A DNA stretch of 50,713 nt from an uncultured Mycoplasma sp. Lineage in GTDB: Bacteria; Bacillota_I; Bacilli_A; RF39; UBA660. The notes under the pieces were generated by a model. It made no database searches and was not told the origin of the DNA. It saw nothing but the letters and a program-made list of their open reading frames with translations. The position numbers were made by a program, and so were the translations under genes. The DNA lies in contig CAMNSE010000008.1 in assembly GCA_946554525.1 (NCBI GenBank), forward strand, positions 1 through 50,713. The letters are read 5' to 3'. Below, in pieces: positions 37,979 through 42,337 of the stretch (its first letter is position 1; each line of letters begins with the position of its first letter).

Positions 37979-39634
37979 TTATGATACTACATAAACTCCT
38001 TGAGAATCTATAGTCACATTATTTATTTTTGTTGGATCTAAGTTTATTACCGGACGAAGACCAAAGGGGTTGTCAACGCGGATATCGCTGTTCACGCCAC
38101 CATAATAAACTACTGTCCACACATTACCATATGAGCCAGAGAAATAAGCTGGGGTCATTGACCAATAGTCTTGTCCGTTATATAAATAATAGGCATAGTT
38201 ATTTGCTCTAGACTCTCCTCCTGCTAATAAAGCTTCATCTGCGCTTATTAATCCTATCAGATATGTTAATGATCCATTTCCATTGGCTGTACCTTTTGTA
38301 TACACATCATTTTTATTTCCATTCGCTAATTTTGAACATTTTAGACTTGGAATTTTATTTACGCCTAATCTTACATATGCTCCATATCTTGTTTTACTTG
38401 TTCCAGTTCCCAGGCTACTATTAGCGGCATACGGACTATCATAATTGTATGTACTTCTATCACCACAGAATCCTGAGTCAGATAAATAACTTGCGTAATT
38501 TGATAATCCACTACTTGTATACCAACTATCTAATTGTGTCTTAGCATTACTACTTTCATTAGTTATTTGCAATGTGCTCGTATATGTTGAAACATATACA
38601 TCTCTAGCGGATGATGCTACCTCCCCAATTTTGTACATCGTTGTACATGTATTACTTGTTGTTTGGCATGTATATGTTCCTTTAAATATTCCATCGTACA
38701 CTGCGGTATGACCGTCTTTATCTATACTACTGCCTAATACAAATTCTCCTGTTTTTGTATTAAATGTGTATGTACTACTTAAGTACCAATCGCCAACAGT
38801 TCCATCTATTCTGTTACTATTTTCATTTATAATTTTTTTGTATTCCTTTTTCGTATAAGCATATCCTACATACATATTATCATTTGAAGATGAATTAAAA
38901 GTTTGTGACGTTTTTGCAATACTATTTGTTGTATTTGTTCCATTAGCATGATACGCCGTTCCATCATATATCATTCTTATTGTTCCATCTCCATTTATAC
39001 GAATGATTCTCCAATAGTATCCTGCAAATTTTACATAATTATTTGTTGGGGTGCCTCTAAAATAATAACTCATCCCATAGTCATCTTCCATTGCCCACAT
39101 TCCTGTTGTGTCTTCTCCACATGTTCTTGAGGTTCCATTATAGACACCACTAGTACATGATGTTTTACTAAAATCTGGATTACCTTTAGTTTTGATTGCT
39201 GATTCTCCTCCATTGGAAGCTAATATTTGATTACAAAATACACTTGTACATGTAGATTTTTCTAAGACTATTGAACACTTTGTTCCTTTTTTTGTTACAT
39301 CTATATATACTTTATTATCCCTATATTCAAAATTTGTATCCAATTTACTTCCTGATTTATCTTTACATATACTCTCAATTGTATTTACAGTATAATTACC
39401 CGCAGGTACTTCATCAACTTGTCTATAACTATCCCCTTCTTTTATTTGGATAGACACTATTTCTAAATCTGTTAGTGTCCAATTAACTTTTGTATTTATT
39501 AAATTTAGTCTTTGTTCATCTTTATAATTTGCTCTTGTTGATACAAAGAACACTACTGATGCTATAGCAAGTATTAATATTGCTCCTATAATATATTTCT
39601 TTCTATTATCTTTTCTTAATGTTTCGAACTCCAT
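37979..39634 (-). CDS. Surface protein under a poly-G promoter
   Basis: The 551-aa protein has an N-terminal membrane anchor (about 12-34, KKYIIGAILILAIASVVFF) with little ahead of it. The rest is an extracellular, Ser/Thr/Tyr/Asn-rich region with scattered cysteine pairs. The last 100 residues contain YWSMTPAYFSG and GLRPVINLD, typical of a Gram-positive surface domain of unknown function often near DUF6273. I start at 39634, where GAGTGATAAT lies ahead of the ATG. An upstream in-frame TTG at 39688 would translate the poly-G as Gly and is rejected. The promoter spacer holds G10, so expression is likely to switch. Confidence 0.78.
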   Translation of the reverse strand: MEFETLRKDNRKKYIIGAILILAIASVVFFVSTRANYKDEQRLNLINTKVNWTLTDLEIVSIQIKEGDSYRQVDEVPAGNYTVNTIESICKDKSGSKLDTNFEYRDNKVYIDVTKKGTKCSIVLEKSTCTSVFCNQILASNGGESAIKTKGNPDFSKTSCTSGVYNGTSRTCGEDTTGMWAMEDDYGMSYYFRGTPTNNYVKFAGYYWRIIRINGDGTIRMIYDGTAYHANGTNTTNSIAKTSQTFNSSSNDNMYVGYAYTKKEYKKIINENSNRIDGTVGDWYLSSTYTFNTKTGEFVLGSSIDKDGHTAVYDGIFKGTYTCQTTSNTCTTMYKIGEVASSARDVYVSTYTSTLQITNESSNAKTQLDSWYTSSGLSNYASYLSDSGFCGDRSTYNYDSPYAANSSLGTGTSKTRYGAYVRLGVNKIPSLKCSKLANGNKNDVYTKGTANGNGSLTYLIGLISADEALLAGGESRANNYAYYLYNGQDYWSMTPAYFSGSYGNVWTVVYYGGVNSDIRVDNPFGLRPVINLDPTKINNVTIDSQGVYVVS

Positions 39635-39659: not shown

Positions 39660-39688
39660 ATAATAGCATACCCCCCCCCCGGAGTCAA
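39660..39688 (-). promoter_or_regulatory. Promoter with G10 tract in its spacer
   Basis: On the minus strand TTGACT (39683-39688), a 17-base spacer made of CC, ten G and TATGC, then TATTAT (39660-39665) with an extended TG. The G-run is 39671-39680. A one-base slip changes the spacing from the optimal 17 to 16 or 18, a standard on/off mechanism. Confidence 0.8.
39671..39680 (-). repeat. Homopolymer tract of ten G (C on plus strand)
   Basis: It is the longest G/C homopolymer I noticed in this AT-rich window. It lies between the -35 and -10 boxes of the surface-protein promoter. Confidence 0.95.
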
Positions 39689-39787
39689 TATTTTTATATT
39701 TTTTTTAGAGCTAATTTATTGACTTACAAGTGCTATTTTTATATAATTAGTTATATCATTTTATGATGATAAAGAAAGGAAAATAAA

Positions 39788-42337
39788 ATGTTAGAACTTA
39801 AAAATATAACCAAAAAGTACTTAACAGGTGCTAGTAGTGTTAGTGCCTTAAAAGGTATTAATTTAAAATTTAGAGAAAATGAGTTTGTTAGTATTTTAGG
39901 TCCTTCAGGGTGTGGTAAAACAACTCTTTTAAATATAATTGGTGGACTTGATCAATATACTAGTGGGGATTTAATTATTAATGGTATATCTACTAAAAAG
40001 TTTAAAGATAAAGATTGGGATAACTATAGAAACCATAGTATTGGCTTTGTGTTTCAAAATTATAATTTAATTCCTCATCAAACAGTTTTACAAAATGTAG
40101 AACTAGCTTTAACTCTTGCAGGTGTTAGTAAATCTGAAAGAAGAAAAAGAGCAATAAATGCTCTTAAAGACGTAGGGCTTGAAGATCAAATTCATAAAAA
40201 GCCAAACCAAATGAGTGGAGGGCAAATGCAAAGAGTGGCAATTGCCAGAGCTTTAGTATCTAATCCAGATATATTACTCGCTGATGAGCCTACTGGAGCA
40301 CTTGATACTAAAACTAGTGTTCAAATCATGGAACTTTTAAAGAAAATTGCCAAAGATAAACTAGTTATTATGGTTACTCATAACCCAGAGCTTGCGCAGG
40401 ACTATTCTACGCGTATAATTAAATTGCTAGATGGAAATGTAATAGATGACTCTAACCCTTATAAAAAAGAAGATAAAAAGAAAGCTAAAATAACTGGTAA
40501 AACAAATATGTCATTTACAACAGCATTATCTCTTAGCTTAAATAATTTGCTTACCAAAAAAGGAAGAACTATTCTTACAGCATTTGCTGGTTCAATAGGT
40601 ATTATTGGAATAGCATTAATTCTATCATTATCTAGTGGTATGCAAAACTATATAAGTAAAGTTGAAGAAGATACTTTATCTAGTTATCCTATTACTATTC
40701 AAGAAAAAACTATGGATACTGGTGAACTCTTAAGTGCTGCGCAAGGAACACTTAATGACGAATCAGTAAAAGAAGATGGAAAAATTCATTCAGAGAATAT
40801 TACTACTAAAATGTTATCTCTAATGAGTAGTGGTGCTAAAACAAATAATTTATTTGAATTTAAAAAATATATAGATAATAACTATGAAGATTTTAATAAA
40901 TATATGAATGCTATTCAATATAGTTATAATTTAGATTTAAATATTTATAAACAAAATGAAAATGATTATACTCTTGTAAATCCTGATCAAATAATTGAAA
41001 AACTAGGCATGGCTGAAATGAATGCTATGGAGAATATGTTTATGGGTAATACTACGAGTTATAATGCTTTTTCTGAAATGCTTGATAATAAAGATTTAAT
41101 AAATGAACAATATGAAATACTTGCTGGAGATATTCCTAAGAATTATAATGAAGTAGTAATCACGGTTAATAAAGATAATGCTATAAGCGATTATACTTTA
41201 TATGCTATAGGCCTTCTTGATAGTAATGAACTTGTAGATAATTACAAGACAGTAATGAAGGGTGAAAAAGTTCAGGACTTAGAAGAAAAAAGTTACACTT
41301 ATGAAGAATTACTAAATATTAAATTTAAAGTTCTTTTAAATTCTGATTATTATGTAAAACAAAATAATATGTGGGTAAATAAAAGTAACGATGAAGCTTA
41401 CTTAAATAAATTATTAGATAATGCTTTAGAGTTGAAAGTTGTAGGTATAATAAAACCTAAAGAAGAGACTATATCAACAACAAATTCTTATGGAGGAGTA
41501 TTATATACTTCTGATCTAACTAAATATGTTATTGAAAAAATAAATGATTCTCAAATTGCTAAAGAGCAACTAAAAAATCCAAATATAAATATTTTTACTA
41601 ATAAAGAATTTTCAAATAAAGAATTTAATATTAATAATTTAAGTGTAGAAGAAAGAGCATATCTTGCGTCTTTATCACAAGCTGAACTTGCAAATCTTAT
41701 AAAAAATTATCAAGATAATGCTACAGCTACATATGAAGCTAATCTAAAAAAATTAGGAATTGTTGATTTAGAGCATCCAAGTACAATAAACATTTATGCT
41801 AAAGACTTTGATTCTAAAGAAAGCTTAGGAGATTTAATTGATAAATATAATAAAAATACAACTGAGGAAAATACAATTTCTTATACAGATATAATAGCAG
41901 TTATGATGAGTGGCGTATCAAAAATAATTAATATTATTAGTTATGTATTGATGGGATTCGTTAGCATATCTCTTATTGTTTCATCAATAATGATTGGTAT
42001 TATAACTTATATTTCAGTACTTGAAAGAACAAAGGAAATAGGTATTCTAAGAAGTATAGGAGCTAGTAAAAAAGATATTTCTCGTGTCTTTAATGCAGAA
42101 ACATTGATAGTAGGATTTACTGCCGGCGCTCTTGGAATTATAATTACTATTCTTTTAAATATTCCAATTAACTTAGTTATTAAATCATTAACTAATGTAT
42201 CTCACATTTCTAGTTTGCCAATTGGTGGCGCAGTTATATTAGTACTTATTAGCATATTCTTAACAGTAATAGCAGGATTAATTCCTTCTCGTATGGCAAG
42301 TAAAAAAGATCCTGTAGAAGCGCTAAGAACTGAATAA
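39788..42337 (+). CDS. ABC exporter, ATPase fused to FtsX-like permease
   Basis: The 849-aa protein joins an ATP-binding domain (about 1-225: GPSGCGKTTLLN, MSGGQMQRVAIARAL, ILLADEPTGALD) to a MacB/FtsX-type permease. The permease has one membrane helix near 262, a large extracytoplasmic domain (about 290-700) and three C-terminal helices with VLERTKEIGILRSIGASKKD. MacB-type (type VII) transporters move peptides or lipoproteins, or signal mechanically, rather than pump through the membrane. The fusion makes a homodimer possible. AAAGGAAAA lies ahead of the ATG and a strong terminator follows. The substrate is unknown. Confidence 0.93.
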   Translation: MLELKNITKKYLTGASSVSALKGINLKFRENEFVSILGPSGCGKTTLLNIIGGLDQYTSGDLIINGISTKKFKDKDWDNYRNHSIGFVFQNYNLIPHQTVLQNVELALTLAGVSKSERRKRAINALKDVGLEDQIHKKPNQMSGGQMQRVAIARALVSNPDILLADEPTGALDTKTSVQIMELLKKIAKDKLVIMVTHNPELAQDYSTRIIKLLDGNVIDDSNPYKKEDKKKAKITGKTNMSFTTALSLSLNNLLTKKGRTILTAFAGSIGIIGIALILSLSSGMQNYISKVEEDTLSSYPITIQEKTMDTGELLSAAQGTLNDESVKEDGKIHSENITTKMLSLMSSGAKTNNLFEFKKYIDNNYEDFNKYMNAIQYSYNLDLNIYKQNENDYTLVNPDQIIEKLGMAEMNAMENMFMGNTTSYNAFSEMLDNKDLINEQYEILAGDIPKNYNEVVITVNKDNAISDYTLYAIGLLDSNELVDNYKTVMKGEKVQDLEEKSYTYEELLNIKFKVLLNSDYYVKQNNMWVNKSNDEAYLNKLLDNALELKVVGIIKPKEETISTTNSYGGVLYTSDLTKYVIEKINDSQIAKEQLKNPNINIFTNKEFSNKEFNINNLSVEERAYLASLSQAELANLIKNYQDNATATYEANLKKLGIVDLEHPSTINIYAKDFDSKESLGDLIDKYNKNTTEENTISYTDIIAVMMSGVSKIINIISYVLMGFVSISLIVSSIMIGIITYISVLERTKEIGILRSIGASKKDISRVFNAETLIVGFTAGALGIIITILLNIPINLVIKSLTNVSHISSLPIGGAVILVLISIFLTVIAGLIPSRMASKKDPVEALRTE

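Follow-up and report, generated by a model that had tools for sequence, protein, structure and literature searches.

A G10 tract in a promoter spacer as a probable phase-variation switch for a surface-protein gene in an uncultured Bacilli lineage

Here, we propose that a run of ten G in the promoter spacer of a surface-protein gene is a phase-variation (contingency) switch of the porA type, operating by slipped-strand mispairing and repeated across the genome, a reading to which we assign a probability of roughly 0.87 and in which both slippage in living cells and the effect of tract length on expression are inferred. The tract lies in the window, the 50.7 kb stretch of DNA analysed here, and slippage in the spacer had already been suggested in an initial annotation. 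This remains the best-supported interpretation, resting on four features that are observed: the anatomy of the promoter, the confinement of G-runs to promoter spacers, differences in tract length between copies with identical flanks, and tracts within coding sequences in sister species. Variation between cells is itself an inference.

In the mechanism that we envisage, the G-run would fill the spacer between the -35 and -10 boxes of a sigma-A-type promoter, DNA polymerase slippage would add or remove Gs at a high rate, and the spacer would shift from about 14 to 20 nt, altering the transcription of the surface protein. Judging by its spacing, the assembled G10 state (17 nt) would leave the promoter ON or strong. 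In addition, the extended -10 box may soften the dependence on spacing and make the response to tract length graded. Because the genome has tract promoters built in this way ahead of surface genes, a dlt-like operon, a GNAT gene and two sigma genes, each cell could display its own ON/OFF combination of surface genes, that is, a phasome.

The tract promoter and the genome-wide set

On the minus strand (39688-39660), the promoter reads TTGACT CC GGGGGGGGGG TATGC TATTAT (Table 1). The initial annotation had described TTGACT, a 17-base spacer containing G10, TATTAT, a short leader and a surface-protein start, and this description is exact in both sequence and coordinates. Its remark that such a run is far from expected in this DNA also holds, as the window has a GC content of 28.7%, its other G/C runs are all of lengths 1 to 5, leaving the tract as the only one of 6 or more, and a first-order model predicts about 0.001 runs of at least 10 per window and 0.02 per genome. 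Similarly, the 29-mer promoter, with up to 3 mismatches allowed, occurs once in the window and in none of 100 shuffles. The promoter boxes alone are not significant, with 17 promoter-like sites in this AT-rich window versus 15.6 in shuffles; the significance comes from the G-tract and from the genome-wide association of tracts with promoters, not from the boxes.

Table 1. Coordinates of the tract promoter, its neighbours and related features
Feature	Position	Strand	Basis
-35 box TTGACT	39688-39683	minus	direct reading; promoter scan, 10/12 matches with TG
Promoter spacer CC-G10-TATGC, 17 nt	39682-39666	minus	direct reading, promoter scan
Run of ten G, non-template strand; site of the proposed slippage switch	39671-39680	minus	all other G/C runs of the window are of 5 or fewer
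Extended -10 TG inside the spacer	39668-39667	minus	direct reading, promoter scan
-10 box TATTAT	39665-39660	minus	direct reading, promoter scan
Leader, 25 nt, to ATG at 39634	39659-39635	minus	direct reading
Weak Shine-Dalgarno-like AGAGAG in the leader	39647-39642	minus	direct reading
Surface protein, 551 aa, membrane-anchored, member of a large paralogous family	37979-39634	minus	sequence, prediction
Promoter of the divergent gene, TTGACT-17-TATAAT, without a tract; serves as internal comparison	39719-39747	plus	promoter scan
Divergent ABC transporter gene (fused ATPase and permease), outside the switch	39788-42337	plus	translation
DltA/DltB/DltD-like genes	L263:2737-7041 (G000:C11)		
Two adjacent sigma-70 genes	G000:C15 (L262:3137-7462)		
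Coding tract in the G022 orthologue of the large sigma factor	L376 (G022:C4), near position 1182	minus	

The initial annotation described one tract site; the assembly holds 17. In its 1.13 Mb, spread over 23 contigs, 19 G-runs of at least 7 were listed, two of which continue across contig ends (C6 into C2 and C9 into C18), giving 17 distinct sites. All 17 are flanked by TTGAC(T/C/A) on one side and a -10 box on the other, with the G always on the strand in which TTGAC comes first, namely the non-template strand, and their spacers measure 14 (one site), 15 (two), 16 (seven), 17 (six) or 18 nt (one). Three of them have G10, including the window copy. Since every long G-run found in the genome occupies the same promoter position, the window tract is most likely a member of a genome-wide switch set.

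Surface genes lie downstream at 13 of these sites, two of them at contig ends, and most genes behind tracts belong to surface families A and B, the latter having the N-terminal MEKKKN...SYAYF. The remaining downstream genes are the dlt-like operon, the GNAT gene and the two sigma-70 genes. The operon, part of a region for glycan synthesis and preceded by a G9 promoter, comprises a DltA-related AMP-binding ligase and, after it, MBOAT (DltB-like) and DltD-like genes. The genes that would be switched are, by prediction, surface or surface-modifying, as they include membrane-anchored paralogues and this operon. The family B, dltB and dltD labels come from sequence reading only, while the DltA-like and sigma labels rest on Pfam/NCBIfam matches below the NCBIfam equivalog cut-offs.

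The window surface protein belongs to family A and is predicted to have a TM helix (residues 11-34) and an extracellular beta-rich region. Its C-terminus weakly matches DUF6273, its structure model is of moderate confidence (pLDDT 71), and neither fold nor sequence gave a significant PDB match. Four other family A paralogues in the same genome have no tract; other species of the genus encode up to 78 family A matches per genome, and the family A promoters inspected in them are tract-free. Thus, the tract is an added feature and not part of the surface gene family. As a separate observation, tract-free surface genes in sister species (L296-L299 and L304, upstream) have in common a long leader with a stem-like motif, AAGCTAGGAAAC...GAAGCCTAGC.

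Tract lengths, coding tracts and competing explanations

The alternative that survives best treats the G-run as a fixed element of the promoter, or as the binding site (operator) of a regulator of a common regulon, with a length that is constrained and not switched. Several observations fit this idea: a near-identical module, TTGACTCC-Gn-TATGCTATTAT, precedes unrelated genes in the genome, the strand preference for G and not C is strict, and the length is almost constant in sets such as G039 and DWWN. In G039, about 24 near-identical sites, TTTCATAAATC-G8-TACTTTTAAT without TTGAC, are nearly all exactly G8, and the six sites of one Faecalibacterium MAG are all G8. However, tract lengths also differ despite identical flanks. 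Among groups of sites that share 8+11-nt flanks within one genome, the length differs in 10 of 21, and the window's own genome has identical-flank copies at G9 and G10. In a MAG of Candidatus Faecalibacterium gallistercoris (DXBJ), three loci have G8, G9 and G10 although their sequences agree exactly over 46 nt upstream and 122 nt downstream. In six surface genes of the sister genus genome G047, which have TTTGACAAATATGC-Gn-TATCCTAGTCA in nearly identical form, n is 9, 9, 10, 13, 14 and 14. All these comparisons are between copies or genomes of assemblies, with no raw reads and no second strain. Moreover, lineages differ in their flanking sequence, and the only part in common is the G-run between the boxes, which argues against an operator.

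Tracts inside coding sequences, both read by eye, also speak against an operator. In G035, a surface-type protein with a family-A-like N-terminus has a G9 in frame inside its TM segment, and in G002 a G10 near the start of a surface-type protein is out of frame and leads to a stop. Because such tracts in related families of sister species act by frame, they cannot be promoter operators. Altogether, we consider a fixed element or operator unlikely. Slippage in the spacer, the reading that we prefer, has points counting against it too, namely the near-constant G8 sets, the intact MutS and the tract-free promoters of the same surface family in the genus.

A translational switch is still less probable. 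With G10, the frame TTG ACT CCG GGG ... that begins at 39688 stays open through the G-run into the ATG of the window copy, forming a 569-aa ORF; in most paralogues, however, the TTG frame runs into stops or is not in phase with the ATG, the TTG-to-ATG distance keeps no constant frame, and the TTG lacks a ribosome-binding site, the conserved start being the later ATG. An invertible promoter, switched by site-specific recombination with the G-run playing no part, would draw on a phase-variation mechanism known in gut bacteria (Jiang et al. 2019, as it appears among the references of PMC11868660), but it can hardly be sustained at the window promoter, where no strong flanking inverted repeat was found and the longer pairs nearby, themselves imperfect, fail to enclose the boxes. 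Finally, poly-G calls arising as a sequencing or assembly artefact can be practically dismissed, for although Illumina G-tract templates give false Gs towards read ends (PMC9187656), promoter boxes bound all tracts, on either contig strand, across many independent assemblies including those of cultured isolates.

Contig ends give some further support to slippage in the spacer. C6 closes with the 55 bases that open C2, the last of them being the final G of the tract, and C9 stops inside its tract at G8 while C18, with a 54-base overlap, extends it to G10; both breaks would be expected from a k=55 graph that branches at the tract end. In named genomes, among the matches listed, 31 of 114 tract sites are no more than 150 bp away from a contig end, versus 2.3 expected. 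These breaks are supporting evidence only, because paralogous repeats could also cause them, as could Illumina errors, since reads degenerate into Gs after G-tracts (PMC9187656).

Loss of mismatch repair was considered as a cause and rejected: MutS is intact in this genome and in most of the genus, and there is thus no sign of a hypermutator.

Sigma factor genes behind tract promoters

Both sigma-70 genes in the set have tract promoters. One encodes a 444-aa relative of SigK/SigE that has sigma-70 regions 2 and 4; the other encodes a 930-aa RpoD-related protein with regions 2-4 plus repeated C-terminal (sigma-4-like) units, and nothing else in the assembly matches sigma-70 as strongly. Orthologues of the 444-aa protein in three species (39-40% amino acid identity) keep the tract, at G9, G10 and G14, with spacers of 17, 17 and 20, respectively. 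For the large sigma factor, the gene in the sister species G022 carries a G10 early in its coding sequence, and at the assembled length the start frame hits a stop; G019 has an intact relative of it (68% identity) in which the run is interrupted.

We could speculate that G-tract switches act at two levels, on single surface genes and through the two sigma factors, in which case a length change in a single spacer would turn an entire regulon on or off; this is a tentative idea that we rate somewhat below an even chance. Such switches would also offer a concrete case in which to test whether a sigma factor is phase-variable. A G8 promoter before the RpoD-like sigma gene is odd if OFF means no expression, a point that also counts against slippage in the spacer.

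Distribution in relatives and comparison with known systems

In relatives, the design was searched for as TTGAC-N1-4-G7-N3-6-TATNNT in 148 genomes. It is present in 17 of them, all within the taxonomic family of the window (89 genomes) and none among the 59 genomes from other families; the reversed pattern, used as a control, had no match in the 148 genomes. A wider draw gave the pattern in 4 of 19 genomes of the family and in 3 of 373 outside it. A poly-C version was found in only one of the 148 genomes, and G is preferred over C on the non-template strand of relatives almost without exception. No viral contig carried the strict pattern.

A stricter pattern with the extended -10 identified at least 110 stretches in genomes of named species, and the matches listed come from Bacilli, Clostridia, several Faecalibacterium species, Pumilibacter, Dethiobacter and others. 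Tract promoters also occur in cultured isolates (Faecalibacterium sp. An122 and Pumilibacter muris). Among the matches listed, the spacers range from 14 to 20, most being 15-17, although the pattern itself partly limits this range, and 67 of 93 downstream ORFs in other taxa begin with a hydrophobic segment. A small-genome uncultured Bacilli lineage appears to carry whole G-tract switch sets for surface proteins, for a dlt-like operon of the cell wall and for sigma factors. Gut Clostridia and Faecalibacterium, which show the same signature, appear to carry such sets as well. If this is true, the clonal surface heterogeneity of commensals would be readable directly in ordinary metagenome reads.

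Slippage-based phase variation is best known in mucosal pathogens of other phyla. A homopolymer tract at a surface-gene promoter is also found in fetA and opc of Neisseria and fim of Bordetella, but those tracts are poly-C, in contrast to the G found almost always on the non-template strand here. The vlp genes of Mycoplasma hyorhinis similarly form a surface-protein family in a small AT-rich genome, with a tract promoter for each gene; however, their tracts are poly-A, the protein family is different and the genes are clustered, whereas the poly-G promoters described here are dispersed in the genome. Repeats in the vlp promoters are cited in PMC3899988. There, van der Ende 1995 is also cited for Neisseria meningitidis porA, in which a poly-G lies between the -35 and -10 boxes and transcription depends on its length. 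The likeness to porA is close in that a poly-G spacer belongs to a surface-protein promoter and one-base changes alter the spacing. In contrast, porA is one locus, while here 17 promoters, including those of the dlt-like operon and the sigma genes, are found in a small Bacilli-class genome, and the extended -10 abuts the tract, with a transcriptional effect that is inferred.

In Bifidobacterium breve, which is also a gut commensal, slippage of pilus G-tracts has been shown by deep sequencing, and the same authors mention promoter-spacer G-tracts (PMC9187656); those pilus tracts differ in being in coding sequences, in another phylum and at few loci per genome. Since transcription that follows the length of a spacer poly-G is documented in porA, and G-tract slippage in Bifidobacterium breve, the mechanism is already known. 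What seems to be new is the lineage, the number of sites and the sigma and dlt-like targets, as the open-licence literature, to which our search was limited, gave no report for this lineage, for such a switch set or for sigma or dlt-like genes under such tracts.

Other arrangements of G-runs were also seen among relatives. In G036 (L365-L367), an AT core separates runs of G8-10 from CCCC in a palindromic arrangement, GGGG-TAAATATTTA-CCCC, which is a different design. In G056, there are 19 matches to the reversed poly-C pattern, the control for the poly-C search, equivalent to AACTG-G7-ATAnnA, and these possibly represent another tract design.
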